Both the position numbers and the translations under genes were made by a program. Source: Gammaproteobacteria bacterium (GTDB lineage Bacteria > Pseudomonadota > Gammaproteobacteria > Steroidobacterales > Steroidobacteraceae). Taken from it: a DNA stretch of 47,369 nt. The stretch is taken from assembly GCA_003132425.1 (NCBI GenBank), contig PKXS01000002.1:1-47369 (forward strand), written 5' to 3'. Positions 9,122 through 44,060 of this stretch are shown here, one piece after another (positions within the stretch are counted from its first letter, which is position 1; each line of letters starts with the position of its first letter). Below the pieces are notes generated by a model. That model was not told where the DNA came from, made no database searches, and was given only the letters and a program-made list of their open reading frames with translations.

Positions 9122-9124
9122 AAG

Positions 9125-19224: not shown

Positions 19225-19241
19225 TTTGACCGAGGGTCAAT
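19225..19241 (+). promoter_or_regulatory. TetR-type operator 2
   Basis: The site TTTGACCGAGGGTCAAT repeats the TTGACC/GGTCAA half-sites of operator 1 with a different centre. Its centre is 101 bases from that of operator 1, about ten helical turns. This would suit looping or independent control of tetR-oxygenase and dinB-like genes. It lies 38 bases before the tetR start. Confidence 0.85.
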
Positions 19242-19279
19242 CGAACGAGGTAAATCGAACCAGGGGGGGGAGTTGGGCC

Positions 19280-21530: not shown

Positions 21531-21592
21531 GCGCGAACCTCGTGGGATTCATCGGCGTTGCGGGGGGAGAACTTGACGGCACCCGATGGACG

Positions 21593-21737: not shown

Positions 21738-21742
21738 CGAGG

Positions 21743-23014: not shown

Positions 23015-23083
23015 TTCTCTCCTACTCCCCGGATGATGACGCTGGATAAAGTCTATGCAGTTGTGAGCTGCAAACGAATAATC

Positions 23084-23168
23084 CACCACGGAGGCACGGA
23101 GTCACTGAGAAAAACTTAGAACGGAAAACCCTAAAAGGCTTTCTCCGTGTCTCGGTACCTCCGTGGTG
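23084..23168 (-). repeat. Inverted repeat in the metK-ahcY spacer
   Basis: CACCACGGAGG and CACGGAG (23084-23101) are matched by CTCCGTG and CCTCCGTGGTG (23143-23168) in inverted order, with eight extra bases in the right arm. The stem would fold in the leader of ahcY. The words resemble a repeat near 25655 (CACAGGGGGCACGCAGG), so I read it as a mobile or dispersed element and not a riboswitch. Confidence 0.7.
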
Positions 23169-23175
23169 AAAAAAG

Positions 23176-24360
23176 CTATTTCCTGGCTCCGACTGGCTCA
23201 TTCTTTTTCAAGCCGGCGTCCGATGCCAGTTTGGCGGCTTTGTCGGTCGCTTCCCAGGTGAAATCCGGGTCGGTGCGGCCGAAATGTCCGTAGGCTGCGG
23301 TCTTGCGATAAATGGGACGGCGCAAGTTGAGGGTCTCGATGATCTCGCGCGGCTTGAGCTTGAAATTTGCCCGCACCAGATCTGGAATCAGATTGGCATC
23401 GATCTTCTCAGTTCCGAAAGTATCCACCAGGACGCTGACGGGATCGGCAACTCCGATGGCGTAGGCGAGCTGCACTTCGCAGCGATCGGCGAGACCGGCG
23501 GCGACGATGTTCTTCGCGATGTAACGCGCCATGTAGGCGGCGGAACGATCAACCTTGGTCGGATCTTTGCCGCTGAAGGCGCCGCCGCCGTGACGGCCCA
23601 TACCGCCGTAGGTGTCGACGATGATCTTGCGGCCGGTTAGGCCGGAATCGCCCATGGGGCCGCCGATGACGAAGCGTCCGGTGGGATTGATGTGGTATTT
23701 GGTGTCCTCGTCGAGGAGGTCGGCGGGAATGACGGCCTGGATGACATGCTTCAGAATGTCGCCGCGCAGTTCGTCGTTGCCAACGCTTTCCGAATGCTGA
23801 GTAGACACGACCACCGCGTCTATGCGCTTCACTTTCTTGTTGGCGTCGTATTCAACCGTGACTTGAGATTTCCCATCGGGGCGCAGATAAGGGCAGGTAC
23901 CGTTCTTGCGAACTTCGGAAAGTTTCTGGGTGAGCTTGTGGGCGAGTGAAATCGGGAGGGGCATCAGTTCCGGCGTCTCGTTGCAGGCATAGCCGAACAT
24001 CATGCCCTGGTCGCCGGCGCCGCCTGTATCGACACCCATGGCGATGTCGCCGGATTGCTTGTTGATGCTGGAGATGACGGCGCAGGTGTTGGAGTCGAAA
24101 CCGTAGACGGCATTGTCATAGCCGATGGACTGAACCACGCCGCGGACGAGATTCTGGAAGTCGACGTAGGCTTTGGTGGTGATCTCGCCGGCGATGACGA
24201 CCAGGCCGGTGCAGGTCAGGGTTTCGCAGGCGACGCGGCTGCTCGGGTCTTCACGAAGGCAGGCGTCAAGGATGGCATCGGAAATCTGGTCGGCAATCTT
24301 ATCCGGGTGCCCCTCGGTTACAGATTCCGAGGTAAACAGAAAACGATTCTTAGCTGGCAA
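23176..24360 (-). CDS. metK: S-adenosylmethionine synthetase
   Basis: Makes SAM from methionine and ATP; cytosolic tetramer. The protein is 394 residues from TTG 24360, preceded by AAGGAG. Family signatures are [19 protein letters not shown] (substrate and metal site), [16 protein letters not shown] and [19 protein letters not shown] (P-loop-like). All are intact. With ahcY downstream it forms the methyl cycle. The 231 bases upstream (24361-24591) show no riboswitch I could recognise. Confidence 0.97.
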
Positions 24361-24591
24361 GCTGTATCTCCTTCAAAGGTAACTTCTAGCCGTCACGTCC
24401 GATTGGGGAGGCTTACGGAGTCATGGGCTGTTACTTGGGGGTCTGAACAATTCTACTTGAAAACGGTACCAGAGACGAGCGGTGGAAAGCAATGGAATTG
24501 GGGGTAGCGAGTAGAGGCGACATCGAAGGGGAGCGGAGCGGGTTTGAACGGCAAAAACGGATGGTAAATGGAAGAAAATAAAGCCAGAAAT

Positions 24592-25554
24592 CTAGGGCTG
24601 CGGAGCCGGCGGCGTAGCGCTTCGTGACATTCCGGCAGGACCGAAGGTAACGGTCTTGACCTCGCCGTAATCGGCTCGGAGATCGACCTTCTTGCCGTTG
24701 AATTGAAAGTCGACGCCACCCGCATTTCCGGCCTTGACGGCGATCTCCTTCCGGCCGCGGACGGTGCGCTCGGAGCCTGACACCATAAGCTCGGAGGAGA
24801 CAGACTTGCCGTCGGCGACGATCGAAATCCACGAGTCTTCGCGCGCCTGGATGACGACGGTGAATTCACCGGGAGCCGGGGTGGCGGGCGCGAGCTGAGA
24901 CGGCGGAGTTTTTGAGGTGGTGGATGAGGCCGACGCTCCCGTGGGCGAACCGGAAGTCGGCGTGGCGCCGGGCTTTCCCTGTGTCAATCCCCCCTGTGCC
25001 ATTCCGCCGGGCGTGTCAGCGGGCAGTTGTCCCGACGAGGGCGAACCGATTATGCGGGAAGCGGGATGAAGCGATTGCCTTTCATGCTCATGGTGGCGAC
25101 GGTTCCACAGCGCCAGCGCCAGCGCGATTAGAAGAAGGATTGCGGCGAATAAGCCCCAGGGCAATTGGCGCGGGGAAGTCTCGGCGCTGCTTTCGAGACG
25201 GCGCACGGTTTCTCGATACGTGTCTTGAATTCTTGCCTGTTCTTCTCCCTGATGTCTTTCTCGGGCTTTTTCTGGAACTTTGGGCGCATCGCTCGGCCGC
25301 ACGGGATCGGTTCGCGGAAGGTCGCCTGAGGCCTGCAGGTAGTCAGCGATGATTTGATCTTCGTCGAGGCCTACGCAGCGGGAGTAAGCGCGGACGAAGC
25401 CCCTATTAAAGATGCCTCCCGGCAATTGGTTGAACTTATCCTCCTCGAGCGCCTGGAGAAGGCGGGTGCCAATTTTGGTGGAGGCGGAAATCTGCTCGAG
25501 AGTGATGTTGCGCTTCTCGCGCTCCTGTTTTAGTTTTTCGCCAAAGGAAGGCAA
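24592..25554 (-). CDS. RodZ-like HTH membrane protein
   Basis: About 320 residues from TTG 25554; a longer TTG start at 25641 is in frame. Parts in order: an HTH_25-type domain (GEKLKQEREKRNITLEQISA to NRGFVRAYSRCVGLD, residues 5-70), a charged linker, one membrane helix (PWGLFAAILLLIALALALW), a Ser/Pro/Gly-rich periplasmic linker and a C-terminal DUF4115-type beta domain (EFTVVIQAREDSWISIVADG to GEVKTVTFG). This is the RodZ architecture. RodZ links MreB to the cell-wall machinery. No mreB lies in the window, so the role is inferred from architecture. Confidence 0.82.
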   Translation of the reverse strand: MPSFGEKLKQEREKRNITLEQISASTKIGTRLLQALEEDKFNQLPGGIFNRGFVRAYSRCVGLDEDQIIADYLQASGDLPRTDPVRPSDAPKVPEKARERHQGEEQARIQDTYRETVRRLESSAETSPRQLPWGLFAAILLLIALALALWNRRHHEHERQSLHPASRIIGSPSSGQLPADTPGGMAQGGLTQGKPGATPTSGSPTGASASSTTSKTPPSQLAPATPAPGEFTVVIQAREDSWISIVADGKSVSSELMVSGSERTVRGRKEIAVKAGNAGGVDFQFNGKKVDLRADYGEVKTVTFGPAGMSRSATPPAPQP

Positions 25555-25736
25555 ACGAGTCTCTCGCTTTCGTCGGGAGAACGGAATTTTACTCTGACGG
25601 CAAGCAAGTTCATAGAAAATTGGTGACTCGGTGTTGCGCAACTTGCGAAAGCATTAACCACAGGGGGCACGCAGGTACACAGAGGAATACATACAGCCGT
25701 TTACTTGTTAACGAAGCTGTGCCCCTCGCTCCCGCC

Positions 25737-27467
25737 TTACGGCAATTTATTCAAATAGCAGGGACCGTTGGTGTTTTGCGCGGGCGGCGTGGGCGGCGTC
25801 ATCCAAGGGGGATTGCTGAAGTTGAAAAACTCGCTCATGCTCTTTTGCGCGGCGTCGCGCTTGGTCAGCGGATTCAGATTGAAGCGCTGCTCGATAAAGC
25901 TGAGGATTGCGGTGGTGTCCATCACAGTGTGGGAAACGTAATGTTGAATGGCATACGGTGAGACGACGATCAGCGGTATGCGATAACCGGTATAGGTGAA
26001 ATCGCAGGTGGGGCCCGTCGACTGGGTGCAGATATCGCCGGGCATCAAGTCTTGCGGCTTAATGCCGTCGGGACTCACGGTCGGCTGCGGCGCGACGTGA
26101 TCGTAAGTGCCTCCAAACTCGTCGTAGGTCAGAATAAAGGCGGAGTCTTTCCAGTAACTGCTGGTCATCAAGGCGTTGACGAGCGAAGAAACATAATTTG
26201 CGCCCAGTTGAATGTCGATCGGATACTGGTCGGAGTCGGAGCCGTGCTCGTCGAGTCCGGCGGACGAAGCTGGTTCGATGATCGCCACTTGCGGCAGCGT
26301 TCCGTTCTGCAAGTCGTCAAAGTATTGCGTGATGGTGGCTAGATTTTGCGGATAGTCGGTGGGAATATCCTGTCCCCACTCGAAGTTCTGCACGTAGCTC
26401 AAGGTCAGCAGGCATTGCGGGGTCGGATCCGATTGGCACGAGGAGTCTTGCGGATTCACATAAATCTTCCACGTGATGCCAGCAGCCTGCAATTCCTGGA
26501 AAATGGTTGTGGCGGTAAGCAGCGCCTGATCATTCTGATCGGTGCCGATCGGATAGGCATAGCCCTGCGAGGTGGCGGCAATCAAATATTCACGGTTGGG
26601 CTGAGTGCGGGTCATGGCTGGCGAAAACCAGCGGTCGGATGTGGCAAAATCCGACGCCATGAAGTAGTAGTAATTAAGGTCGGTGCCTTCGTAATAGCCC
26701 ATCGTTCTCTTGCCCTTGACATCGTGGTAGGGCGGATCGATGTCGCGAGCGTCGTGGGCGTTGGTCCAAACCAAGCCATTGAGCGTGGGTGTCTCTGAAA
26801 CCGGATCGTCGAGATTGAAATCGACGTGGCTCTCGTTCCACGAAGGACTGGGATTCTCGATGCATTGGGTGATCAGGTGGTAAGAATCGATCTTGGGACT
26901 GGAATCATCGATAGTGCAATCGGCGGGCGGCGGATAAGCGGGGTCGCATCCGGGGTTGCTTGGCACCGGACCATGCAGGGGAGCGATTCCGGTGCGCGGG
27001 TTGAATTGGGGCAGGCCGTCGAAAGAGGCGTCGGCGATTCCATTCGCAGCCCAGTAGGCGCGCAACTCGCCGAAATAGGAATCGAGCGAGCGGTTCTCCT
27101 GAGCCATAAAGATGATGTGATTGAGCGCGTTGGGGCTCTGGTTGAGATCGAAGGTTGCTATCGCGGACTGGTCCGCATTCATGGTCAAGCTGCAGGCGCC
27201 GGTGCCTTGACAGGCTCCCGACCAGCCGGCAAACGAGGCGCCGCTGGCGGCAGTTGGCGTGAGCGTCACCGCCGTTCCGGCGGGATACGATTTAGTGCAG
27301 GTCGGACTGCACTCGACGCCGGCCGGGCTGCTGGTGACGGTGCCGGTGGCATTGCCGGATAACTGTACTTCCAATTTGTATTTCGTCGTCGCAGAGCTGG
27401 CGGAGGCGGTTAGAAAAATTATTACGCCTAAGATGTTCATCAAAATAGCGAGACTACGTTGAGTCAC
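25737..27467 (-). CDS. Secreted phosphoesterase of the phospholipase C/acid phosphatase family
   Basis: A 576-residue exported enzyme. The GTG start at 27467 gives a signal peptide (AILMNILGVIIFLTASASSA). Next is a small repeat domain (VQLSGNATGTVTSSPAG to GWSGACQGTGACSL, about 30-105), then the phosphoesterase domain with the hallmark FMAQENRSLDSYFG (about 121), DARDIDPPYHD, TRTQPNREYL and FILTYDEFGGTYDHVAP. The family hydrolyses phosphatidylcholine or other phosphate esters outside the cell. A role in phosphate acquisition is plausible. No pho-box could be identified upstream (27468-27691). Confidence 0.88.
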   Translation of the reverse strand: MTQRSLAILMNILGVIIFLTASASSATTKYKLEVQLSGNATGTVTSSPAGVECSPTCTKSYPAGTAVTLTPTAASGASFAGWSGACQGTGACSLTMNADQSAIATFDLNQSPNALNHIIFMAQENRSLDSYFGELRAYWAANGIADASFDGLPQFNPRTGIAPLHGPVPSNPGCDPAYPPPADCTIDDSSPKIDSYHLITQCIENPSPSWNESHVDFNLDDPVSETPTLNGLVWTNAHDARDIDPPYHDVKGKRTMGYYEGTDLNYYYFMASDFATSDRWFSPAMTRTQPNREYLIAATSQGYAYPIGTDQNDQALLTATTIFQELQAAGITWKIYVNPQDSSCQSDPTPQCLLTLSYVQNFEWGQDIPTDYPQNLATITQYFDDLQNGTLPQVAIIEPASSAGLDEHGSDSDQYPIDIQLGANYVSSLVNALMTSSYWKDSAFILTYDEFGGTYDHVAPQPTVSPDGIKPQDLMPGDICTQSTGPTCDFTYTGYRIPLIVVSPYAIQHYVSHTVMDTTAILSFIEQRFNLNPLTKRDAAQKSMSEFFNFSNPPWMTPPTPPAQNTNGPCYLNKLP

Positions 27468-27691
27468 TAATAATCCTCAAATGTTGGAATCCGATAGAAT
27501 CCGCGCAGTATTTGGATAACACTGTTGGGTATAAGGTTGTGGAGGGAGTTGCGTTATATTGCATTAATAAGCGGGGATTTACGGGCGGGACGGAAATGCA
27601 TCGCCGTGACCCGTACTAGTTACCTCCGTTCGTTGCCCGCGCGGTGCGACCAAACCTATAATTTCTTATCCACCACCCGAACGAGGAGTTC

Positions 27692-28744
27692 ATGCCGGAG
27701 GCAGCGGGCACATCCCCAATTCGCCTGTCGCAAGAGTTAACCATCTTCCACGATGTCGCCAAGGCGCTGACGTCGTCGCTCAACCTTGATTCGATTCTGC
27801 AAACCATCATGGAGAAAATGGCGGAATATTTCCGTCCCGACACATGGTCTTTGCTGATGGTGGATGAAGAAAAGGATGAGCTTTATTTTGCGATTGCGGT
27901 TGGGGCGGCCGCGGAGGTTCTGTCGAAGGCGCGGCTGAAGATGGGGGAAGGGATTGCGGGGTGGGTGGCGCGGCAGGGGCAGGTACTAATTGTGCCCGAC
28001 GTGCAGAGTGACCGGCGCTTTTCATCGCGGCTGGATGAGATGACGCGGGTGCAGACTCGGTCGGTGATCTGCGTGCCCTTGCGCTCGAAACACCGCGTGC
28101 TGGGCGTGATTCAGTTGATCAACGCCAACGTGGGGCTGAGCGAACAGGAGCTGTTTTTTCTCCAGGCATTGTGCGACTACGCCGCCATTTCTATCGAGAA
28201 TGCGCGGTCGGTTGAAAAAATTCAGGAACTGACGATCACCGACGATTGCACGGGATTATTCAATGCGCGCCATCTGCACAAAACGCTCGAGACCGAGGTT
28301 TATCGTTCGGCGCGCTTCGGGTATCAGTTCAGCGTGATCTTTATTGACCTCGACCATTTCAAGCAGGTCAACGACACACACGGACACCTCGTAGGAAGCC
28401 GGTTGCTGGCGGAAGTTGGATACCTGATCAAAGCGCAGCTGCGGCTCATTGATTTTGCGTTTCGCTATGGCGGAGACGAGTTTGTGGTTCTGCTGCCGCA
28501 AACCAGCAAAGATCAAGCGGTGGTGGTGGCGAAACGTTTGCAGGATTCGCTGCGCACGGGAACGTTCTGCGTCGAGCAAGGGTTGAATCTGAATGTGCGT
28601 GCCAGCATGGGGCTGGCAACATTTCCGAACGATGCGCAGACGCCGCATGACATCATCCGCCAGGCCGATGAAATGATGTATGTGGTGAAGAACGGCAGCC
28701 GCGATAACATTGGCGTCGCCTCGCGCGGCGTGATGGAAACTTAG
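27692..28744 (+). CDS. GAF-GGDEF diguanylate cyclase
   Basis: A 350-residue cytosolic sensor. A GAF domain (about 18-172, with KMGEGIAGWVARQGQ and VICVPLRSKHRVLGVIQLIN) is followed by a GGDEF domain (about 180-345). The active-site GGDEF is intact at 260-264 (RYGGDEFVV), and an RxxD inhibitory site, RLID at 251-254, lies five residues before it. The enzyme should therefore make cyclic di-GMP and be product-inhibited. The GAF ligand is unknown. No EAL domain is present. Confidence 0.93.
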   Translation: MPEAAGTSPIRLSQELTIFHDVAKALTSSLNLDSILQTIMEKMAEYFRPDTWSLLMVDEEKDELYFAIAVGAAAEVLSKARLKMGEGIAGWVARQGQVLIVPDVQSDRRFSSRLDEMTRVQTRSVICVPLRSKHRVLGVIQLINANVGLSEQELFFLQALCDYAAISIENARSVEKIQELTITDDCTGLFNARHLHKTLETEVYRSARFGYQFSVIFIDLDHFKQVNDTHGHLVGSRLLAEVGYLIKAQLRLIDFAFRYGGDEFVVLLPQTSKDQAVVVAKRLQDSLRTGTFCVEQGLNLNVRASMGLATFPNDAQTPHDIIRQADEMMYVVKNGSRDNIGVASRGVMET

Positions 28745-28815
28745 GGGCAGGTCTCAGGTGACAGGTGTTAGGAAACGCCAAACACAGCCCGCCCTCGTTA
28801 ATTATTATTTTTCGA

Positions 28816-29838
28816 TTATTGCTTTTCTCGCTTTTGTAGATCGGCTGGTTGATCCGCCTTTGGCTGCAGTTCGTTCGGGTCGGGCTTCCAGGTAAACGCG
28901 TTGGCGGGCGCGGAGGGGTTTACGCCGAAATCCCACACGTAGAGATTCATTCCTTCAGTGTCGAGCATCTCGGCGACCGCGTATTCACCGGGCGCAAGGG
29001 GTTCGGCGGGCGCGATCTTCACCCAGCCTCCGGTCATAGCGGCGGAGGTGGTCGCAACGAAACGCTCGTCGGTTTTCATCTTTCCGTTGACTGCAATCTT
29101 GACGGCTCCGGCGAAGCGTTTGCCGTTCTTCAGGTCGATGCGAATAATTTTGAAGCGGTCGTTGTTATTGGCGGGGCTACTCGCGGGCGCTGCTGTTGTG
29201 CCGGCTGCGGGCGCTTCGGTTGCGGTTGCGGGCGCGCTCTGGTCGGGATCGACATTAATATAGATCGAAGGCACAGTGGTGTGGGACTGAATTTTCGCGT
29301 GCGGCCCAGGCAGTTCGATGTTTTGTTTTGCGCCAGCCAGCGGATTGATCACCGCGCGCAGAATATTCGTCTTACTGGTCTTCTCTACGTCGCCGCCGGA
29401 TTGTTGCAACTCGGCTAGCTGTGGCTGATTCTCGAAGGTATCGAGAAGAAAAATTCCGCCTTCGTCGGGCAAGCGCAAGCCGGGGGCGACCTGCGGTGAA
29501 CGGGCTTGCTCGACTTTGCGCTCGGCCTCAAGCTCTTTGTCGAGTTCGACGGCTTCGGGAGCGTGGCCGCCATCCTTGCGGCCCTGCTCAAACTTATCGG
29601 TCGCGTCCCAGTCGATCAGCGATTTCGGAACTTCCTCCCATTCTCCGCGCTCGGCGCTGTAATAGCGGACACGGTCGCCGTGAATCTCATACTTGGTGAC
29701 GGACTGGTAGGAGCCATCTTTCAGGATGAGGCGGCGGGCCTGATTTTGAGCAGGACTCGCAGCCGGAAGAGCAAGACAAAACGCCAAACCTAGAGCGGCA
29801 GCGAGAATATTTCTCACCCTGGGAGTTGGGGATTTCAT
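28816..29838 (-). CDS. Secreted protein of unknown function
   Basis: About 340 residues from ATG 29838 (MKSPTPRVRNILAAALGLAF), with a clear signal peptide ending ASPAQ. Following parts: a basic segment LILKDGSYQSVTKYEIHGDR with VRYYSAERGEWEEVP, which looks like a short SH3- or SLA1-like fold; a charged linker; and a C-terminal domain (DRFKIIRIDLKNGKRFAG to NLYVWDFGVN) after an Ala/Pro/Thr linker. I do not recognise a named family; similar proteins are typical of acidobacteria as I recall. It is divergent from the kinase gene and could be linked to it functionally. Confidence 0.6.
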   Translation of the reverse strand: MKSPTPRVRNILAAALGLAFCLALPAASPAQNQARRLILKDGSYQSVTKYEIHGDRVRYYSAERGEWEEVPKSLIDWDATDKFEQGRKDGGHAPEAVELDKELEAERKVEQARSPQVAPGLRLPDEGGIFLLDTFENQPQLAELQQSGGDVEKTSKTNILRAVINPLAGAKQNIELPGPHAKIQSHTTVPSIYINVDPDQSAPATATEAPAAGTTAAPASSPANNNDRFKIIRIDLKNGKRFAGAVKIAVNGKMKTDERFVATTSAAMTGGWVKIAPAEPLAPGEYAVAEMLDTEGMNLYVWDFGVNPSAPANAFTWKPDPNELQPKADQPADLQKREKQ

Positions 29839-29978
29839 CTGGAGAACATTATCGCCCCTGCCGCTCCGACTGCAAAATTGGATGCGGGTGCCATAGCGAT
29901 CTCCTGGTGCTGACGGCATGCCCTCATTGACTGCCCCGTTTCATCCACGTAAGATTCGCGCCATCGGTCGGCGACACT

Positions 29979-32303
29979 ATGATTGGCGAAACTATGATCG
30001 GCGAAACCATCTCGCACTACCGCATCGTCGAGAAACTCGGTGGCGGCGGGATGGGTGTCGTCTATAAGGCCGAGGATGTCAAACTTGGCCGCTTTGTCGC
30101 GCTAAAATTCCTGCCCGACGATGTCGCGCAAGATGTTCAAGCTCTCAGCCGCTTCCAGCGCGAAGCCAAAGCAGCCTCTGCTCTCAATCATCCAAACATT
30201 TGCACCATTTATGAGATCGACGAGGTAGGCGGCCGGGCTTTCATTTCCATGGAATTGCTGGAGGGGCAGACGCTCCGGCACCGGATCGCTGGAAAAGCAT
30301 TAGACCTCGAAACCTTGTTGGCGCTCGCAATCGAGATTGCCGATGCATTGAACGCCGCGCACGCCAAGGGTGTGGTTCACCGTGATATCAAGCCCGCCAA
30401 CATCTTTGTAACGGAGCAGGGGCACGCTAAGGTTCTAGATTTTGGATTGGCGAAGGTTGCGTCGGCCGGCGCTTCTTCGAGCGACATCGCATCGGCCAAT
30501 ACGCGCACGATGGACGACCAGCACCTTACCAGCCCCGGTTCCACGCTCGGCACCGTCTCTTACATGTCTCCCGAGCAGGTGCGGGCCAAGGAACTTGATG
30601 GCCGGACGGATTTGTTCTCGTTGGGCGCAGTGCTGTACGAGATGGCAACGGGCGCGCTGCCGTTTCGCGGAGAGAGTCCAGGAGTGATCTTCAAAGCCAT
30701 TCTGGATGGGACGCCAACCCCAGCCGTGCGTCTGAATCCCGATCTGCCAGCGGACTTGGAACGCATCATCAATAAATGCCTGGAGAAAGATCGCAACTTG
30801 CGCTACCAGCATGCGTCCGAGATCCGCACCGACCTGCAACGGGTGAAGCGCGACAGCGAGTCTGCGAGATTTGTCGCGCCCGACGAACTGGGCACGAAAC
30901 CGCAAACCGCTGCTCGGTCCCGGGTCGCGAAGGCGCTGATTACGGCAGGAGCGGCGCTGGTCGCGCTGGTTGTGGGGTTCGCCGGATACCGCTGGTATGA
31001 AGCCCATTCTGCACTGACCTCAGCGAATGTGGCGGCGAAACCGTCGATCGCTGTGCTCCCGCTCGAAAATCTCAGCTCTGATCCGGACGGCGCGTACTTC
31101 GCCGATGGCATGACGGACGAGATCACGACCAAGCTGTCCAAAATTCAGGCGATCAACGTGGCTTCGCATTCGGCGGTTGCATCGCTGAAGACTGCGCCAG
31201 CCGATGCCGCTGAAACCGGACGCCGGCTGGGCGTGCGTTACCTTCTGGAAGGCAGCGTGAGGAAGTCCGCGGATCAGGTGAGGGTCAACGTGCATCTGGT
31301 CGACTCCTCTACCGGGTTCGACGCGTGGGCCGAGGATTTCAAGGGTGAGACGAAGGATGTGTTTTCGCTGCAGGAACAAACCGCGCTGAAAATTGCGCAG
31401 GCACTCGACCTGAAGTTGAGTCCTCAGGAAAAAGAGGGTTTGGAGCGGCGCTATACGCAAAATCCGGAGGCATATGAGGCGTACCTAATCGGTCGCGCGC
31501 TGGCAGAGCATGACAGCCAGCCCGACAAGCTAGAGGCGGCGCGCAGCCACTTCGAGCAGGCGCTGAAGCTCGACCCGGAATATGCCCCGGCTTTGGCAGG
31601 TCTCGCGCAGGTGGAAGGCTACTACTATCGCAACGTCGATTCACAGCCAGTTCACCTGGAGCGTGCCGAGCAACTTGCCCAACGGGCGGTTGCCGCCGCA
31701 CCAGATCTCGTGGAGGCGCGGATTGCGCTTGGTTACGTCTACGGTTGGAAATACGAGTATGCGAAAGCCGCGGAAATTCTTCGCGAGACCGTCCGGCTGG
31801 ACCCCGAGAATTCACACGCGTGGGATGTGCTTTCATGGGTCCTTGGCTACGAACAGCCGCCGGAGGCGATCGAGGCCGAGAAAGCGGCGCGAGAGGCGAT
31901 TCGTCTGGAGCCGCCCATGCCGGTCGCCCATTATCATCTCGGCCGCGCACTTCTATTACAGGGACGCTACGACGAAGCTAGCAAGGCCTTCGAGCGCGAA
32001 GGAGAATTGGGAGACGCTTCGTATGTGGAGCTTGGAGAAGCTCAAATTTATCTGGCCCAAGGGAACTATGACGCGGCGATAGCCCGGCTGTCGAAGAATG
32101 GTGAACCAAAGGAGGCGATCAACTCTTACTTTCGAAGCGCCGCCTACGCCGCGAAAGGCGACAAAGAGAAAGCTCTGGTGTCGCTGCAAAAAACCTTCGG
32201 CCTTGGTTACCGTGATTTCGCCGCCATCGAAGGCAGCCCGTATTTTGCTTCCTTGCGCTCTGATCCGCGATTCCAGCAACTCATCCGCCGCTACCAGCAG
32301 TAG
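29979..32303 (+). CDS. Ser/Thr protein kinase with TolB-like and TPR sensor region
   Basis: A 774-residue membrane kinase. The kinase domain (about 14-285) has the glycine loop [15 protein letters not shown]43 (VALKFL), catalytic HRDIKPAN with D136, DFG at 154-156 and SYMSPEQ. One membrane helix follows ([19 protein letters not shown], about 315-335). Next comes a TolB/FlgO-like domain ([20 protein letters not shown] to [20 protein letters not shown]) and TPR-like repeats to the end ([32 protein letters not shown]). This fusion is common in acidobacteria. The start codon region is duplicated ([10 protein letters not shown]), so the true start may be 29979 or 29994. Convergent with ppc, eight bases between stops. 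Confidence 0.93.
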
Positions 32304-32311
32304 CTGCCGTT

Positions 32312-34930
32312 CTATCCCGTATTGTGCAAACCGGCGGCGATGCCGTTCATCATGGCGCCTATCGCGTAATCGAGAGCGGGATCGGCGACCGAATTTGAGG
32401 TGGCGCGCTTGCGGCGCAGCAGATCGACCTGAATCAGGCTAAGAGGATCGACATATGGGTTGCGCAGGCGTATGGAGCGGGAGAGAACGGAATTTTTCTC
32501 CAGCAGATCGCGCTGGCCCGTGATCGACAGAATGACGCGGGCGGTGCGCTCGAATTCCTGGCGCAGCATTTCGAAGACGCGGTCGCGAAGGGCGGCATCG
32601 GTTACGAGATCGGCGTAGAGGCGGGCGATAGCGAAGTCGGCCTTGGCCATGGCGATTTCGACGCTGCTGATCAGGCTCGCGAAAAGCGGGAAGCCGTGCA
32701 TCATTTCGCGCAGGAGGTCGGCATTAGCAGGGGCGCGCGCGGAGAAGCGATCGAGGGCGTAGCCGAATCCGAACCAGGCGGGAACGGCGTGGCGACTTTG
32801 CATCCAGCCGAAGACCCAGGGGATGGCGCGGAGGTCGTCGAGGCTTCTGGTTGCGGCTCGACGCGCGGGGCGGGAGCCGATGCGGGCGTATTCAAGTTCA
32901 TTGACGGGTGTCGCTTGTTCGAAGTATTCGAGGACTTCGGGATTTTCTGCGATGTGTTCGCGGTAGAAAGCGAAAGCGTCTTTCGACATCGTCTGCATCG
33001 CATCGTGCCAGCGTTCGCTCGTTTCTGGAGCGGCTTTCGCCGGCATAGTGATGGCCTCCAGGCAGGCGGCGATCATGATTTCGAGATTCCACTCGGCGAG
33101 AACAGGGTCGGAATATTTCCAGCCTAGAACTTCGCCTTGCTCAGTGATGCGGATCTCGCCCGAGAAATCGCCGGCGGGTTGAGCGAGGATGGCGGCGTGC
33201 GTGGGACCTCCACCGCGGCCTACAGTGCCGCCTCGGCCGTGGAAGAGGCGCAGATTGACTCCGCAGTCGCGCGCTGCTTCGTGCAGGTGATGTTGCGCTT
33301 GATGCAATTCCCATGTGCTGGTGAGCATGCCTCCGTCTTTATTGGAATCGGAGTAGCCGAGCATGACTTCGTGAATGCGTCCCCAGGAATCGAGGAGCGG
33401 CTGGAACTGGGGAGATTTCCAGACGCGGCGCATGATTTCGGGCGAAGTACGCAGCGCATCGATCGATTCGAATAGAGGCACGGGCATGAGGCCGGGATCG
33501 CCATCGCTGGCTGCGGAGGAAACACCGCTGAGCGCGGCTAGACGGAGCACGGCAAAGATGTCGTGTTCGGATTGGGTGTTGCTGATTACGAAATTGCGAA
33601 TGGCTTTCGGCGAGTGCGTCTTTTTTAATTTGGCGATGGCGCGGAAAGTTTGGAGCAATTCGACGGAAGCGTGGGAAAGCTCGGGCGGGAAGTGAGTGGA
33701 GCGAGCGGGGAGTTTTTCCGCCGACTCCAACTCGGAGAGCGCCTGCGAATGCACGCGGGCGTGCTGACGAATATCGAGCGCGTGCAAGTGGAAGCCGAAG
33801 GTTCGGACTTTGCTAAGCAGCGGTGAGACGAGTTCCGCTAAGCGGTGTCCGCGGTTTGCGTGCAGACTGTCGCGGATAAGGTTGAGATCTTCTTCGAACG
33901 GTTGCGAGGACTGGTAGGCGTGTTCGTGCTTGGATGATTTGCGGCTGAAGCGCAGACGGGCGATCAGGAATTCGAGGAAATGGCGATAGAGTTCGGCGGA
34001 GGTGATCTGTTTCCAGCGCGAATATTTTTCGCCGAGCTTATCGTCGTATTCGCGAACGCGCTTGGCGAGAGGCGCAGAGACTCCTATGCGGCGCGTGGAC
34101 ATGCTCAATTGGCTGATCAGGCGCGTGGTTTCGGCGATGTAGTGGTCGATGATGGTGCCGCGCGCCATGTCGAGCGCGTCGACGGTGGAAGCAGCGGTAA
34201 CGAAGGGATTGCCGTCGCGATCGCCGCCGATCCAGGAACCGAATTGCAAGAACGGCGGGACTTCAAAGCGTTCGTCCGGAAACTGCTTCACGAACGCGCT
34301 CTCGATCTTGCCGAGCAGCTGCGGCACCACCTCAAAGAGATTTTCGTTGAAGAAATACAAGCCCCAGGCCACTTCCTGGGCGACGGTAGGCTTGGCCAAT
34401 TTGAGTTCGCCGGTAAGCCAGAGCAGCTCGATCTCATTTCCTACGGCGAGGATCAACTCCTCCCGTTCGCGAAGCGTCCAGCGCGGCGATTCGAGATCGA
34501 GCAAGCGCAAGTAAATTCGCCTATGCCGCTCCAGCACGGTGACGCGCTTGGCCTCGGTCGGATGCGCGGTAATCACCGGCCGCACGCGCAGTCCGGTAAG
34601 GGTGCGGCGGATTTCCGCGCCCGTGATGCCTTCGGCAGCGGCGCGCGCGAACACGCCTGCAAAGGTGCCGCGCAGCTGCTCATAGCCGCGTTCCCGTTCG
34701 ATCTCACGGCGATTGCGCATGTCGCGGTTCTGTTCGGCGATCGCCAGCAGCTGAAACCAGATGCCTTGAGCCTGCAGCGTGCGCGCCAGCAGCAGCGCCG
34801 ACATGCCCGCTGTGGTGCGCTCCTCGCGCAGCACTGCCGCGACCTGCGGCTCGTAGCGCTGCACCACGCCGACCAGCAGATCGAACAGCAGCTCCGCGCG
34901 CGAGAAGGCGGCGTTCGGCGGTTGCTGCAC
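32312..34930 (-). CDS. ppc: Phosphoenolpyruvate carboxylase, apparently hybrid
   Basis: PEP carboxylase adds bicarbonate to PEP to give oxaloacetate. The 872-residue frame is intact: TAHPTEAKR (H123), FGSWIGGDRDGNPFVTA, LGYSDSNKDGGM, LFHGRGGTVGRGGGPTHAA, QGEVLGWKYSDP, AMAKADFAIARLYADL and the conserved C-terminal AGLHNTG. Its ATG is four bases after the mtkB stop. Leucine codons change within it: in residues 1-133, 14 of 15 are CTG; in residues 141-192 only 2 of 16 are. Residues after about 134 match the acidobacterial side, those before match the proteobacterial side. The product is a full enzyme on paper, but may not exist in one organism. Confidence 0.9.
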   Translation of the reverse strand: MQQPPNAAFSRAELLFDLLVGVVQRYEPQVAAVLREERTTAGMSALLLARTLQAQGIWFQLLAIAEQNRDMRNRREIERERGYEQLRGTFAGVFARAAAEGITGAEIRRTLTGLRVRPVITAHPTEAKRVTVLERHRRIYLRLLDLESPRWTLREREELILAVGNEIELLWLTGELKLAKPTVAQEVAWGLYFFNENLFEVVPQLLGKIESAFVKQFPDERFEVPPFLQFGSWIGGDRDGNPFVTAASTVDALDMARGTIIDHYIAETTRLISQLSMSTRRIGVSAPLAKRVREYDDKLGEKYSRWKQITSAELYRHFLEFLIARLRFSRKSSKHEHAYQSSQPFEEDLNLIRDSLHANRGHRLAELVSPLLSKVRTFGFHLHALDIRQHARVHSQALSELESAEKLPARSTHFPPELSHASVELLQTFRAIAKLKKTHSPKAIRNFVISNTQSEHDIFAVLRLAALSGVSSAASDGDPGLMPVPLFESIDALRTSPEIMRRVWKSPQFQPLLDSWGRIHEVMLGYSDSNKDGGMLTSTWELHQAQHHLHEAARDCGVNLRLFHGRGGTVGRGGGPTHAAILAQPAGDFSGEIRITEQGEVLGWKYSDPVLAEWNLEIMIAACLEAITMPAKAAPETSERWHDAMQTMSKDAFAFYREHIAENPEVLEYFEQATPVNELEYARIGSRPARRAATRSLDDLRAIPWVFGWMQSRHAVPAWFGFGYALDRFSARAPANADLLREMMHGFPLFASLISSVEIAMAKADFAIARLYADLVTDAALRDRVFEMLRQEFERTARVILSITGQRDLLEKNSVLSRSIRLRNPYVDPLSLIQVDLLRRKRATSNSVADPALDYAIGAMMNGIAAGLHNTG
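34511..34575. other. Putative junction between acidobacterial and proteobacterial DNA
   Basis: This segment encodes the ppc motif around TAHPTEAKRVTVLERHRR. On the high-coordinate side codons are almost all CTG, CGC and GCG; on the low side TTG, CTC, AGG, CGA, GGA and AAT appear at once. Gene content and repeat content also change across it. A join at a highly conserved stretch fits either homologous recombination or an assembler joining two genomes. Confidence 0.7.
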
Positions 34931-34934
34931 TCGC

Positions 34935-35825
34935 TCAGTTCGCCTTGGCCAGCGCCAGCGCGACGGTCGAGCCGAGCTCGGCTGCGCTGGGTGCGACGAA
35001 CAGACCGTACGATTTCATGATCTGCGCCTTCTCCGCGGCGGTATCGCCTTCGGCGGAAATGATCGCCCCGGCATGCCCCATGCGACGGCCCTTCGGCGCC
35101 GTCAGCCCGGCCACGTAGCCGACCACCGGCTTGGTCATGTTCTCTTTGACCCATCGCGCCGCCTCCGATTCCTGCGGTCCGCCGATTTCGCCGATGATGA
35201 TGACAGCCTTGGTTTCCGGGTCTTGCTCGAACAGCATCAGGTGATCGAGGAAGGAGCTGCCGTTGATCGGGTCGCCGCCGATGCCGACGCTGGTGGTGAC
35301 GCCGATGCCCAGCGCTTTCATCTGCGCGCCGGCCTCGTAACCCAGCGTACCGGAGCGCGAGACAATGCCGACGCTGCCGGGAATGTAGATATTGCTCGGC
35401 ATGATGCCGAGCATCGCCTTGCCGGCGCTGATGATGCCCGCGCAGTTCGGGCCCACGATGGTCGTGCGCTTGGGCTTTGGATAGCGCCACAGGTAGCGCT
35501 TGACGCGCATCATGTCCTGCGCGGGAATGCCGTCGGTGATGATGCAGACCAGCCTCAAGCCCGCATCCGCCGCTTCCATCAGCGCATCCGCCGCGTAAGG
35601 CGGAGGCACGAAGGCGAGACTCGCCTCGGCGCCGGTGGCCTGCACCGCGTCCTTCACCGTGTTGAAGACTGGGCGGTCCAGATGCGCCTGACCACCCTTG
35701 CCCGGCGTGACCCCCCCCACGACATTGGTGCCATATGCGATCATTTCCTTGGCGTGAAATGTCGCCTTGTCGCCCGTGAAGCCCTGCAGGATCACCGGTG
35801 TCGTTGCGTCGATTAGGATGCTCAT
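34935..35825 (-). CDS. mtkB: Malate-CoA ligase (malate thiokinase) alpha subunit
   Basis: Together with MtkA it ligates malate to CoA with ATP, giving malyl-CoA for the serine cycle. The 296-residue protein starts at ATG 35825 ([18 protein letters not shown]), overlapping mtkA by four bases. It has the CoA-binding fold (GGVTPGKGG), the ligase part with [18 protein letters not shown] and [16 protein letters not shown], and the phospho-histidine region [12 protein letters not shown]. It belongs to the succinyl-CoA synthetase alpha family; the sequence and the adjacent ppc fit MtkB of Methylobacterium-type operons better than SucD. Succinyl-CoA synthetase remains the alternative. Confidence 0.82.
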
Positions 35826-36991
35826 TGGACGGCTCCGCCGCGCGACGCCGCGACCGCTTTCTGCGCCGCTTCGGCCAGCGTGTCGGCAGTGATGATCGGC
35901 AAACCGCACTCGCGCACGATGCGCCTCCCTTCCTCGACATTGGTGCCGGCGAGGCGCACGACCAGCGGCACGCGCAGGCCCTTGGCCGCCTGCACCACGC
36001 CCTGCGCAACCCAGTCGCAGCGGTTGATGCCGGCGAAGATGTTGACCAGTATCGCCTTCACGTTCCGGTCGGAAAGCACAAGATTGAACGCCGCCGCGAC
36101 GCGCTCCGGCGAGGCGCCGCCGCCGACATCGAGAAAGTTGGCAGGCTCGCCGCCTGAGTGCTTGATCATGTCCATGGTCGCCATCGCCAAACCGGCGCCG
36201 TTGATGATGCAGCCGATGTCCCCGCTCAGACCGACGTAGTTGAGGCCGAACTGCGCAGCCTGCGCTTCGCGCGGATCCTCTTCGGCAGAGTCGCGCATTT
36301 CGGCGACCTTGGGACGGCGGAACATGGCGTTGTCATCGAAGGACATCTTGGCGTCGAGCGCCAGCACTCGATTGTCCTTGGTCACCACCAGCGGATTGAT
36401 CTCGACCATCGTCGCGTCGAGATCGCGGAACGCGCGGTAGCAGCCCATGATCGTGGTCACTGCCTGGCTGACCTGCTTGATGTTCAGCTTGAGGCCGAAA
36501 GCCAATTCGCGGGCCTGGAAACTCTGCAGCCCCAGCGCCGGGTCGACCTGCACCTGCAGAATGGACTCGGGCCGCTTAACGGCGATCTCCTCGATCTCCA
36601 CCCCGCCTTCTGCTGAGGCGATCACGCGGATGCGTTCGATTTTGCGGTCGAGGACGAATCCTAAGTACAGCGCGCGCACGAAAGGTTCGGCCTTCTCGAC
36701 GTAGAGCCGGTGAACGGCTTTACCGGCGGGGCCGGTCTGGTTGGTCACCAAAGTGGCGCCAAGCATTCCCTTCGCCGCGGCGGCCACCTCCTGATAGGTG
36801 CGGCAGAGCTTGACGCCGCCGGCCTTGCCGCGGCCACCGGCGTGAATCTGCGCCTTGATCGCCCAATGCCAGCCACCCAATTCCGTCGCGACGTACACGG
36901 CCTGCTCGGGACTGTAGGCGACCCCGCCCGGGGGCACAGCCACGCCGAATCCGGACAACAGCTCCTTCGCCTGATACTCGTGAATATCCAT
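35822..36991 (-). CDS. mtkA: Malate-CoA ligase (malate thiokinase) beta subunit
   Basis: The 389-residue ATP-grasp subunit of the malate-CoA ligase. It begins [20 protein letters not shown], has the ATP-binding [20 protein letters not shown], the metal-binding region [12 protein letters not shown], and the ligase part [20 protein letters not shown] with [10 protein letters not shown]. The family resembles SucC, but [19 protein letters not shown] and the mtkA-mtkB-ppc order are as I recall from serine-cycle methylotrophs. It leads the three-gene operon. It is divergent from yraN. Confidence 0.82.
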
Positions 36992-37124
36992 CGTTCTCTC
37001 CGTAGCGCACGCCAGTCACTATAAACTAACCGGCCGCCGCGGGTGACGCCTAGCAGTGTCGCCGATTTGGCGGCGAACACGCAGGAAAACGCCGGCGACG
37101 GCCGCGAGCTGTCGAGGCAAGCTT

Positions 37125-37508
37125 GTGCGCGTGGCCCAGCCTCTCACCCGAATTTCGGCCGGTGCGTTGGCCGAACAGCTCGCGGCCGAGCACCTTAAAG
37201 CACGCGGCCTGTCGGTTCTCGCGCGCAACCTGCGCTGCCGAGCCGGGGAGATCGATCTGATCTGTCTCGACGCGCAGATTCTGGCGATCGTCGAGGTGCG
37301 GCAGCGCCGTCGCGTGGATTTCGGCGGAGCCTTGGGATCGGTCACGTGGCGCAAGCAACGCAAAATCATTCGCGCCGCTCGATACATTCTGCGGTTCCGG
37401 CCGCAATGGCGCGCCTACCCGATTCGCTTCGACGTGATTGCCGTGCAAGGGACGCCGGACGGCGCCCACGACATCCTGTGGATCAAGGACGCCTTCCGCG
37501 CTACTTGA
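37125..37508 (+). CDS. yraN: YraN/UPF0102 family endonuclease-like protein
   Basis: About 127 residues from GTG 37125. The conserved pattern runs AGALAEQLAAEHLKARGLSV, LARNLRCRAGEIDLICLD, then IVEVRQRR and ITWRKQRKI-like text (VTWRKQRKIIRAARYILR). It has the GEIDLI...VEVR core of the PD-(D/E)xK-like UPF0102 fold. Function is not established; a role in Holliday-junction or chromosomal processing is suggested. Its end overlaps the convergent sspB by eight bases. The position next to sspBA matches the order in Pseudomonas. Confidence 0.88.
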   Translation: MRVAQPLTRISAGALAEQLAAEHLKARGLSVLARNLRCRAGEIDLICLDAQILAIVEVRQRRRVDFGGALGSVTWRKQRKIIRAARYILRFRPQWRAYPIRFDVIAVQGTPDGAHDILWIKDAFRAT

Positions 37509-37902
37509 CGACCTGCAATTTCGGGCGCTTGGCAGCCGCAGCCTTGCCGGCGTTCGGCGCCGCCGGCGGCCCGTCAGTGGGATCGGGGTCCGCATCGCCC
37601 TCCGGAAAAATCATCCCTTGGCCGGTTTCGCGCGCATAGATGCCCAAAATCGCCCGCACCGGCACCTGCACGGCGAATCCCACGCCGCTGAAGCGCGCTT
37701 CGAAGCTCACGAAATCGTTGCCCAGCTTCAGCATCTGGGTAGCCGAGAAACTCACATTCAGCACGATCTTGCCGTCCTTCACATACTGCCGCGGCACGGT
37801 CACGCCTTCGGCGGCCGCATCCACGACGATATGCGGCGTCTCGCCGCTGTCGGAAATCCACTCGTGCAACGCACGCAGCAAATAGGGCCGCCGCGGCTTC
37901 AA
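37501..37902 (-). CDS. sspB: ClpXP protease specificity-enhancing factor SspB
   Basis: SspB tethers ssrA-tagged and other substrates to ClpXP. The 133-residue protein starts at TTG 37902, overlapping the sspA stop by four bases. It has the fold pattern PRRPYLLRALHEWISDSG, TPHIVVDA, VPRQYVKDGKIVLNVS and ARFSGVGFAVQVPVRAILGI. The C-terminal linker ends in the ClpX-binding-type tail (AAKRPKLQVVK), which is the XB motif region. The pairing with sspA is the standard one. Confidence 0.94.
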   Translation of the reverse strand: MKPRRPYLLRALHEWISDSGETPHIVVDAAAEGVTVPRQYVKDGKIVLNVSFSATQMLKLGNDFVSFEARFSGVGFAVQVPVRAILGIYARETGQGMIFPEGDADPDPTDGPPAAPNAGKAAAAKRPKLQVVK

Positions 37903-38516
37903 TGTCGCATATCCCGTTCAGTTTCGGTCAAGCAGGCGCGAAACGTGGCGCGCGCGAAAATCGAGTTCATATATTTCACGATGGGATGCGCCTGAGCCGG
38001 CAACTGTATGCCGTAGGCCTGCAAACGCCACAGGATCGGCGCGATGCTGGCATCCACCAAGGAAAACTCGTCGCTCAAAAAAAACGGCTTTGCCTTGAAA
38101 ACTTCCGCGCTTGCACAAATTGCCTCGCACAGGACTTTGCGGCTATGCGCGGCGGTCTCGCTCTGCCCGCCCAGCTCGATGTCGCGTGCCAGCGCATACC
38201 AGTCGCGTTCCAATCGGTAGAGCGCCACTCGAAACTGCGCGCGAGTCACCGGGTCGATCGGCATCAGGGGTGGATGCGGGAACCGTTCATCCAAGTATTC
38301 GATGATAACCCGCGAGTCGTACAACACCAGATCCCGATCGACCAGCGTCGGCACACTGTGATAGGGGTTAAGATCGATCAGGTCCTCCGGCAGATTTTGC
38401 GGATCGACGTTCACCAGCTCGATCGCGATTCCTTTCTCGGCAAGCACAATGCGCGTTCGATGACTCCAAGGATCAGCCGGTGCGGAAAACAAAGTCATCA
38501 CCGAGCGACGTGCCAC
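37899..38516 (-). CDS. sspA: Stringent starvation protein A
   Basis: SspA is a glutathione-transferase-like protein that binds RNA polymerase and helps acid and stationary-phase survival. The 205-residue protein starts at GTG 38516. It has the thioredoxin-like N-domain (MTLFSAPADPWSHRTRIVLA, then YHSVPTLVDRDLVLYDSRVI and YLDERFPHPPLMP) and a helical C-domain. It is followed by sspB and preceded by petC, 61 bases away, an order typical of proteobacteria. Confidence 0.94.
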   Translation of the reverse strand: MARRSVMTLFSAPADPWSHRTRIVLAEKGIAIELVNVDPQNLPEDLIDLNPYHSVPTLVDRDLVLYDSRVIIEYLDERFPHPPLMPIDPVTRAQFRVALYRLERDWYALARDIELGGQSETAAHSRKVLCEAICASAEVFKAKPFFLSDEFSLVDASIAPILWRLQAYGIQLPAQAHPIVKYMNSIFARATFRACLTETERDMRH

Positions 38517-38576
38517 TAACGCGATCTCCTAAGAGCCTATACAAACGGGAGTCCCCCCCGGGAGTACTCGCTCGCG

Positions 38577-39314
38577 TCAGTGGACGTCCTTCCAATACTC
38601 TTTTTTCAGCAGGTATGCGAACGCCAAGAACACCAGCAAAAACAGCGTCACGAAAATGCCCATCGATTGGCGCTTCGCCTTGACTGGCTCGCCGGCATAA
38701 TCCAGAAAATTGACGGTGTCCCGAACGAACTGATCATACTCCTCTGGCTTCATCGCGCCCGGCGTCATTGCATCCACGCCCACCAGAACCATTCTGGCGC
38801 TGCCGTGATCGTCGGGCTCGTTCTTGAATACCGGCTTTTGCAATCCCTGTCTGTCCTCCAGAACATGCGGCATCGCAGCGTTCGGCAAATACAGGTTGTT
38901 GACGCCCCAGATGCGGGTTTTGTCGGCATAAAAGCCATGTAGGAACGAATATAGGTAGTCAACACCCTTGGAACGGGCGATGAGCGACAGGTCGGGCGGC
39001 TGCTTGCCGAACCAAGTTTCCGCATCGGACGGCATGGCCGAGTTGATGGTGTCGACGGCCTTACTCGAGGTGAACATCAAATTCGCGGCAAGTTCCGGCT
39101 CGGTCATCTTTAGATCCTGCGCCATCCGGTTGTAGCGCAAATACTTGAGCGAATGGCAGCCCGAACAATAATTCATGAAGTTGCGCGCGCCGCGCTGCAA
39201 GGAATCGATGTTATTGATATCCGTGCCGGCATGCAGCAGCGGAATCTCGCTCTCCTGGGCCATGGCGCCGGCCGGCAGAAGCACCACAACGGTCAATAAC
39301 AAGTGCTTAAGCAT
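38577..39314 (-). CDS. petC: Ubiquinol-cytochrome c reductase cytochrome c1
   Basis: Heme-binding subunit of complex III. The 245-residue protein has a signal peptide (LLLTVVVLLPAGAMA), the heme-attachment motif CSGCH (residues 50-54), the axial-ligand methionine region (AMPHVLEDRQG or VDAMTPGAM) and a C-terminal membrane helix (MGIFVTLFLLVFLAFAYLL). It overlaps petB by eight bases. Electrons go from the Rieske protein to a soluble cytochrome. Confidence 0.95.
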   Translation of the reverse strand: MLKHLLLTVVVLLPAGAMAQESEIPLLHAGTDINNIDSLQRGARNFMNYCSGCHSLKYLRYNRMAQDLKMTEPELAANLMFTSSKAVDTINSAMPSDAETWFGKQPPDLSLIARSKGVDYLYSFLHGFYADKTRIWGVNNLYLPNAAMPHVLEDRQGLQKPVFKNEPDDHGSARMVLVGVDAMTPGAMKPEEYDQFVRDTVNFLDYAGEPVKAKRQSMGIFVTLFLLVFLAFAYLLKKEYWKDVH

Positions 39315-40572
39315 GTCCTGTTACCCTCTCCGGCTCTGGCTTCACGCTATCGAATCTCGTGTACCAGGGCATCAGCAAAAAGAAAGCGAAATACAAAGCG
39401 GTACAGACTTTGGCCAGGGTCGGGTAGATCCCCGAGGGCGGCTCCAATCCGCAGACCCCCAAGGTGATAAACGACACGACGAAGATAGCTAACATAATCT
39501 TATATATCGGCCCGCGATAACGAATGGATCGAACCGGGGACCGATCCAGCCAGGGCAGAAAGAACAACACGGCGATGGCGGCGCCCATCACCAGCACGCC
39601 CCACACCTGCGTCCCCGCGAACGACGGCACCGCCCGCAACATGGCGTAGAACGGGGTGAAATACCATACCGGCGCAATGTGCGGCGGGGTCTGCAAGGGA
39701 TTGGCCGGCTCGAAGTTCGGCGATTCCAAGAACAGGCCGCCGAAAGTGGGAGCAAAGAAAATCACGCCGCAAAAGATCACTAGGAATCCCGCGACACCGA
39801 GCAGGTCCTTCACCGTGTAGTACGGATGGAAGGGAATGCCGTCGAGCGGATGGCCCTGCGAGTCCTTATGCTTCTTGATCTCGATGCCGTCCGGGTTATT
39901 GGAGCCCACCTCGTGCAAGGCCATGAGGTGCGCGATCACCAAGAACACCAAAGCCAGGGGCAGCGCTGCCACGTGCAGGGCGAAGAATCGATTCAAGGTG
40001 GCGTCGCCGATGACGTAGTCGCCGCGGATCCATTCGACCAAACCTCCGCCGATCACCGGCAGGCTGCCGAATAAAGATACGATGACTTGCGCGCCCCAAT
40101 AACTCATGTTGCCCCAGGGCAGCACATAGCCCATGAAGGCCTCCGCCATCAGCAGCAGGAAAATCAAGCAGCCGAATATCCAGAGCAGTTCGCGCGGCTT
40201 GCGGTGCGATCCGTACAGGAGCGCACGGAACATGTGCAAGTAGACCACGATGAAGAAAGCCGACGCACCGGTAGAGTGCATGTAGCGGATCAGCCATCCC
40301 CATTCGACATCGCGCATGATGTATTCCACGGAGGCGAACGCCCCGGCGGCCGAAGGGTTGTAGCTCATGGTCAAGAAAATGCCCGTGACCAATTGGTTCG
40401 CGAGAATCAACAAGGCGAGAGATCCGAAGTAATACCAGAAGTTGAAGTTCTTCGGCGCGTAATACTCGGAAACTTGTTCCCGCCACATTTTCGTCAGCGG
40501 GAAGCGCTGATCGATCCAGTCGATCAATCGTCCGCCCTTGCCGGTGTCGGCGGATTCAGGTGCTGCGGCCAT
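39307..40572 (-). CDS. petB: Ubiquinol-cytochrome c reductase cytochrome b
   Basis: Central quinol-oxidising membrane subunit of complex III, 421 residues from ATG 40572. The frame is open upstream, but only through petA in another frame. Eight or so membrane helices are visible, with heme-ligand His pairs in the MHSTGASAFFIVVYLHMF and LHVAALPLALVFLVIAHLMALHEVGSNNPDG regions, and the quinol-site PVWYFTPFYAMLRAV. Order petA-petB-petC is the standard fbc operon. Confidence 0.96.
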   Translation of the reverse strand: MAAAPESADTGKGGRLIDWIDQRFPLTKMWREQVSEYYAPKNFNFWYYFGSLALLILANQLVTGIFLTMSYNPSAAGAFASVEYIMRDVEWGWLIRYMHSTGASAFFIVVYLHMFRALLYGSHRKPRELLWIFGCLIFLLLMAEAFMGYVLPWGNMSYWGAQVIVSLFGSLPVIGGGLVEWIRGDYVIGDATLNRFFALHVAALPLALVFLVIAHLMALHEVGSNNPDGIEIKKHKDSQGHPLDGIPFHPYYTVKDLLGVAGFLVIFCGVIFFAPTFGGLFLESPNFEPANPLQTPPHIAPVWYFTPFYAMLRAVPSFAGTQVWGVLVMGAAIAVLFFLPWLDRSPVRSIRYRGPIYKIMLAIFVVSFITLGVCGLEPPSGIYPTLAKVCTALYFAFFLLMPWYTRFDSVKPEPERVTGHA

Positions 40573-40595
40573 CGCTTGAACCTCTTCTGCGTTAT

Positions 40596-41216
40596 TTAAG
40601 CTGTCTTGGGGGCGTCGTCCACGCCGATCACGACGCGCGCATCCGCGCTGATCGCGTAGGAAGGCACCGTCAGATTCTTCGGCGCCGGCATGCTCTTGAA
40701 TACCCGGCCCGATATATCGTACTTGGAGCCGTGGCAAGGGCAGTAAAACCCGCCCGGCCAGTTCTGGCCCAAATCGGTACCCGAGACTTGGTATGCATTG
40801 TTCGGCTCGAACGCACCGAGCGGCGAGCAGCCGAGATGGGTGCATACCGCCAATCCTATCCAGTATTCGGGATTGCGCGCGCGCGCGGCCCCCGCCGATT
40901 TAATGTAAGCCGGCTGAACGGAATCATCGGACTTAGGGTCCGCCAGCATCGCGTCGTGAGCTCCGAGCTGAGCGATGATAGTTGGGGTCCGGCGCACGAC
41001 GAACACCGGCTGTCCGCGCCAGACAACCTTCAGCATTTGCCCGGCATCGAGCTTCGATGCATCAACCTCGACCGGAGCGCCGAGCGCTCTGGCGCGCGCG
41101 CTGGGTTGCCACGATGCCAAGAAAGGCACCGCGGCGAAGGCCACGCCGATCGCACCCGTTCCTACAGTAGCCGCCGTCAACAACCGGCGTCGGCTATGGT
41201 CAACCTGATCGTTCAT
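40596..41216 (-). CDS. petA: Ubiquinol-cytochrome c reductase Rieske iron-sulfur subunit
   Basis: A 206-residue [2Fe-2S] subunit of complex III, started at ATG 41216. The N-terminal SRRRLLTAATVGTGAIG is a Tat-type signal that stays as membrane anchor. Cluster ligands and disulfide cysteines lie in CTHLGC and CPCHGS. First gene of the operon; the 119-base gap to the divergent protease gene holds the likely promoters for both. Confidence 0.96.
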   Translation of the reverse strand: MNDQVDHSRRRLLTAATVGTGAIGVAFAAVPFLASWQPSARARALGAPVEVDASKLDAGQMLKVVWRGQPVFVVRRTPTIIAQLGAHDAMLADPKSDDSVQPAYIKSAGAARARNPEYWIGLAVCTHLGCSPLGAFEPNNAYQVSGTDLGQNWPGGFYCPCHGSKYDISGRVFKSMPAPKNLTVPSYAISADARVVIGVDDAPKTA

Positions 41217-41335
41217 TCGATTGCCCCCGAACAATGTTGACAAATCTTCACGCAAACCCCTATGCGCATAGTGTTTCCCTAGCAATGGTGGGAGCGCATT
41301 ATACACGGACGACTTAATCGTCCTCAGGAAATTAG

Positions 41336-44014
<2,679 letters not shown>

Positions 44015-44060
44015 GCCGGCTCCTCAATTTCTCTAAGCATACCGCGGTATCATTGGGACA

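Follow-up and report, generated by a model that had tools for sequence, protein, structure and literature searches.

An acidobacterial segment very probably joined by the assembler to a gammaproteobacterial contig at the GGDRDGNP motif of ppc

The ppc open reading frame at 32312–34930 (minus strand) runs uninterrupted over 872 amino acids, and its two parts each align with ppc genes of a different bacterial group. Does it encode a hybrid enzyme produced by recent recombination, or is the contig that carries it a chimera of two organisms? We addressed this question using a window of 47,369 nucleotides, the whole stretch of DNA that was analyzed, which comprises positions 1–47369 of contig C52 (91,358 bp in total). 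The source genome, G000, consists of 4,082,086 bases in 146 contigs, with a completeness of 96.57% and a contamination of 5.74%; judged by the contig number and the contamination, it appears to be an assembly from a metagenome. A single copy of recA was found in G000, with no sign of a complete second genome in the bin.

We compared the hybrid ppc with that of L044 (PLIX01000036.1, Gammaproteobacteria bacterium isolate palsa_1196), a sequence identical to part of the first 20 kb of the 29,850-bp contig G027:C190. Because L044 is thus contained in G027, which belongs to the same family as G000, the latter is, as classified, gammaproteobacterial. Nucleotide identity to L044 was 81% over residues 1–60, 81% over 61–118, 88% over 119–140, 83% over 141–180, 83% over 181–210, and 81% over 211–234; it reached 96% over residues 235–242 and then fell to 43% (243–270), 46% (271–330), and 50% (331–400). 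The acidobacterial ppc genes L035, L036, and L040 gave the reverse profile, with 40–58% over residues 1–234, 92–96% over 235–242, and 77–86% over 243–400. Thus, the gammaproteobacterial N-terminal part comprises residues 1–234 (34228–34930), the join corresponds to the GGDRDGNP codons of residues 235–242 (34206–34227), and the acidobacterial C-terminal part covers residues 243–872 (32312–34205), all on the minus strand.

The protein comparison, which included 53 related loci and contig C58, was consistent with a switch at residues 235–242; some rows, L043 among them, represent a partial gene, and L087 was left out, as it gave no ORF. Amino acid identity to the L044/G027 ppc was 87% for residues 1–118 and 82% for residues 141–234. 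Residues 243–400 and 401–872 shared 71–84% identity with acidobacterial ppc (L035–L042 and L078), as compared to 22–31% and 37–42%, respectively, with the proteobacterial and gemmatimonadotal genes compared. The acidobacterial L043 ppc, which the stop-to-stop ORF step recovered only in part and for which the table accordingly holds no N-terminal identities, showed 32% identity over 28 residues and 78% in residues 401–872. The score of the whole hybrid against the phosphoenolpyruvate carboxylase family NF000584 was 811.5 bits, narrowly below the curated cut-off of 815.

The sequence-only reading had proposed that acidobacterial DNA on the left gives way abruptly to gammaproteobacterial DNA on the right at a single place within this ORF, 34511–34575. 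The identity profiles bear out the change and move it about 300 bp leftward, to 34206–34227, since gammaproteobacterial identity persists through the TAHPTEAKR motif to residue 234. Likewise, the idea that the join lies where a conserved motif gives unrelated ppc genes bases in common was correct in kind, while the codon table identifies the motif as GGDRDGNP and not TAHPTEAKR.

Leucine codons had been counted on both sides of the original position. Our count agreed with 14 CTG among 15 leucines in residues 1–133, while residues 141–192 contained 1 of 13 on recounting, not 2 of 16. Such a drop could reflect a three-part mosaic with a second switch at 34511–34575, which we regard as exceedingly improbable: identity to L044 is alike on both sides of that interval, identity to the three acidobacterial ppc genes remains at 42–58% over residues 119–234, and a single alignment with G027 spans 34197–34907 at 83.8% DNA identity. 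The ppc of L044 is also poorer in CTG leucine in the same place (8 of 14 in residues 1–133 and 3 of 11 in 141–192). Because L044 shows a similar dip, and the dip falls inside the gammaproteobacterial segment, we did not retain leucine codons as an indicator of where the join lies. The GC3 profile in 30-codon bins showed no clear step at either 34511–34575 or 34206–34227.

The arm to the right of the join (34228–47369, continuing on C52 to 91358) is native to G000. It was matched in 38 of 39 relatives (G000 excluded), several of them syntenic at 73–79%; synteny extended to genomes of the same genus, and a long syntenic match with G007 had 78% identity over 10 kb. Farther along the contig, C52 67001–87000 was matched in all 12 relatives searched. 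All nine acidobacterial genomes also gave matches to the right arm, of which the longer ones were conserved patches with 63–71% identity.

Adjacent to ppc, the right arm carries two CoA ligase genes on the minus strand. The product of mtkA (35822–36991), malate–CoA ligase subunit beta, scored 709.9 bits against NF010647 (cut-off 604). The neighboring alpha subunit gene (34935–35825), whose start was set by comparison with L092 of G027, scored 424.3 bits against NF004230 (succinate–CoA ligase subunit alpha; cut-off 336) and is regarded as mtkB because it adjoins mtkA and ppc. Window positions 34927–36991 share 86.4% DNA identity with L092, and in G027, the order mtkA-mtkB-ppc-mcl is intact on one contig (L092 6334–12293). 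The G000 copy of this cluster is divided between window 34935–36991 and positions 3039–6047 of L090, which lies on C58. The names mtkB and mcl, as well as those of the genes past mcl on C58, are provisional, as they follow gene order and not a family search. Together with the N-terminal part of ppc, mtkAB also align at 74% to contig C78 of the same-genus genome G003.

The left arm (1–34205) is probably foreign to G000, as suggested by its few matches in relatives and its synteny with acidobacteria. Among its genes are ahcY (21743–23089) and metK (23176–24360), both on the minus strand and acidobacterial, as well as a CcmB family gene and a flotillin-like gene. Window positions 16000–34200 gave some match in 36 of 39 relatives (G000 excluded); all those longer than 800 bp were metK, with 65–69% identity, and the remainder were shorter and fell in metK, ahcY, ppc, and other patches. 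Positions 1–16000 were matched in only 2 of 12 relatives, each time over less than 130 bp. All nine acidobacterial genomes matched the left arm; among the matches listed, the best-scoring ones had 71–86% identity and those of metK had 78–84%. The order metK, the gene at 27.7–28.7 kb, the gene at 28.8–29.7 kb, and ppc recurred, among the matches listed, on G060:C67, G061:C72, G062:C32, and G065:C95, and ahcY joined metK in the ordered block on all of these except that of G062. The acidobacteria syntenic with the left arm carry their own ppc. Thus, synteny and the matches in each group upheld the taxonomy proposed for the two arms, acidobacterial on the left and gammaproteobacterial on the right.

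Between ppc and the 28.8–29.7 kb gene, the window contains a gene (29979–32303) that we take, from its translation, to be serine/threonine-kinase-like. Among the matches listed, ppc and the 28.8–29.7 kb gene lie only 176–306 bp apart in G060, G061, G062, and G065, and the kinase-like gene is therefore absent from that place in these genomes. Its first 0.9 kb had many matches elsewhere in acidobacterial genomes among the matches listed.

Because the left arm brings its own copies, G000 has two metK and two ahcY genes, the second copy of both being on C73. The C73 metK (42719–43820; L144 and L145), presumably the native one, was matched in two pieces that overlap and lie in different frames, pointing to a frameshift or a sequencing error.

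The composition of the two arms was also different, with a tetranucleotide correlation of 0.53 between them and a GC content of 57.0% on the left and 62.1% on the right. The right arm correlated at 0.88 with a gammaproteobacterial reference (stretches of G003 and G007) and at 0.64 with an acidobacterial one (L035–L037), and the left arm at 0.55 and 0.73, respectively; the references contain genes homologous to the arms, and these values are therefore biased toward the expected answer. Between its own two halves, the left arm correlated at only 0.66 and the right arm at 0.81. Tiles of 5 kb were noisy, and the two references tied at 15001–20000. Of the 38 sampled pieces of other G000 contigs, 36 were closer to the right arm than to the left. 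The two exceptions, C46 (0.41 vs. 0.40) and C22 (0.44 vs. 0.38), differed by slim margins of 0.01 and 0.06 and are no proof of more acidobacterial contigs in the bin.

These data bear on the question of which arm belongs to the host. An acidobacterium that acquired the gammaproteobacterial DNA on the right would have in its favor nothing beyond the contig that the two arms have in common, while relatives of G000 match the right arm and C52 67–87 kb and hardly the left arm, and the pieces of other contigs point the same way. We therefore give this scenario almost no probability. G000 belongs with the gammaproteobacterial arm of C52.

The gammaproteobacterial half of ppc that is missing from C52 was found on a separate contig. 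Of the three ppc loci in G000, one is the hybrid on C52, another is a full-length gene on C68 (37% identity), and the third lies on C58. This contig is 6,049 bp long, and its ppc frame of 662 amino acids is open at the contig end. Read inwards, this end matches 22 bases of window 34227–34206 exactly, with a mismatch at base 23; the match lies at position 57132 of the C52 reverse strand, equal to window 34227, and 22 bp is the longest exact prefix. Besides the rest of the gammaproteobacterial ppc, C58 contains a malyl-CoA-lyase-like (mcl-like) gene, two further genes, and RNase P RNA. G027:C190 aligned with C58 at 84.8% over 3,011 bp, and on that contig, the alignments of the C52 right arm and of C58 meet at the same spot with an overlap of 31 bp. 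The opposite end of C58 (L090 1–275) is cut within the bacterial RNase P RNA gene (RF00010), so that both ends are in conserved sequence.

The overlap at the join was the longest among the contig ends. The sampled contigs had 62 ends, of which 4 were dropped as N, and among the 58 informative ends, only that of C58 had an exact match of at least 21 bp elsewhere in the sampled sequence, located at the join. The other 57 gave one match of comparable length, 20 bp near the start of another contig, and one 14-bp match. These overlaps do not establish the word size of the assembler. Among the loci compared, the exact 22-mer occurred outside G000 only in L006, L054, and L057. It was exact in none of the 10 acidobacterial loci compared, differing by one base in L035 and by two in L036 and L040; the acidobacterial source gene is thus assumed to have carried the same 22-mer.

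The nearest organisms therefore differ on the two sides of the join, and the displaced continuation is present as another contig that ends there. We consider it very probable that C52 is a chimera of a gammaproteobacterium and an acidobacterium, both from soil and unrelated to each other, joined by the assembler at the GGDRDGNP motif of ppc. Two organisms of one sample would have had ppc genes with about 22 bases in common at this motif. The assembler would have entered the fork along the gammaproteobacterial ppc from the mtkA-mtkB side and exited along the acidobacterial ppc, and the true gammaproteobacterial continuation would have been left over as C58. An assembly graph that forked at a short word common to the two ppc genes would explain why identity switches sharply within a conserved motif, why the frame is kept, why the displaced half stops at those very bases, and why the bin contains a foreign arm and two copies each of metK and ahcY. 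We observed directly the switch point, the end of C58 there, the intact order in a relative, the two duplicated genes, and that each arm is syntenic with members of its own phylum; the attribution of the join to the assembler, as opposed to recombination inside a cell, is what we infer.

Alternatively, the gammaproteobacterium might very recently have acquired an acidobacterial segment of at least 34 kb, joined in frame within ppc, while its own ppc copy, intact or truncated, persisted. The ORF unbroken over 872 residues and the full-length second ppc retained on C68 would agree with such a transfer, although a join at homologous codons would preserve the frame in any case. The end of C58 exactly at the join is what a fork in the assembly graph predicts, whereas recombination needs an extra explanation for it: the sequence upstream of the C58 end would have to represent a collapsed repeat, although C52 is continuous for 57 kb. 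The second metK and ahcY would have to have come along as well. The arms also differ in composition, though this would be true of a very recent transfer too. We thus judge a real transfer to be very improbable. An equally slight chance is left to the view that very recent recombination between phyla put this acidobacterial DNA beside mtkAB and yielded a functional hybrid PEP carboxylase. Hence, of the two options offered by the sequence-only reading, the 22-bp exact overlap of the C58 end at the switch strongly favors the chimera and disfavors the recombinant, and it is almost certain that no such hybrid enzyme exists.

In the collection searched, G000 is the representative of its species; the misjoin matters as a caution only. 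Taken at face value, it would credit a gammaproteobacterium with a false hybrid ppc and with acidobacterial genes such as metK, ahcY, a CcmB family gene, and a flotillin-like gene. Moreover, it conceals an intact mtkA-mtkB-ppc-mcl cluster, because most of ppc and mcl are severed onto C58.

The mtkA-mtkB-ppc-mcl arrangement is a gene cluster of serine-cycle methylotrophs. The gene order of the C52 right arm and C58, intact in G027, matches this cluster; in G000, however, it is split across two contigs by the misjoin, and its serine-cycle function is putative. The join itself resembles the interspecies chimeric contigs of short-read metagenome assembly, in which two genomes are likewise connected within a short segment of a conserved gene, the displaced half remains as a contig that stops at the fork, and genes are duplicated in the bin. 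As a probable misjoin, C52 is ordinary and a clean example of its kind. The mock-community chimeric contigs described in PMC8172020 were formed between highly similar genomes and were located at the ends of contigs; in contrast to these, the partners in C52 are from different phyla and would have only about 22 bases in common at the join.
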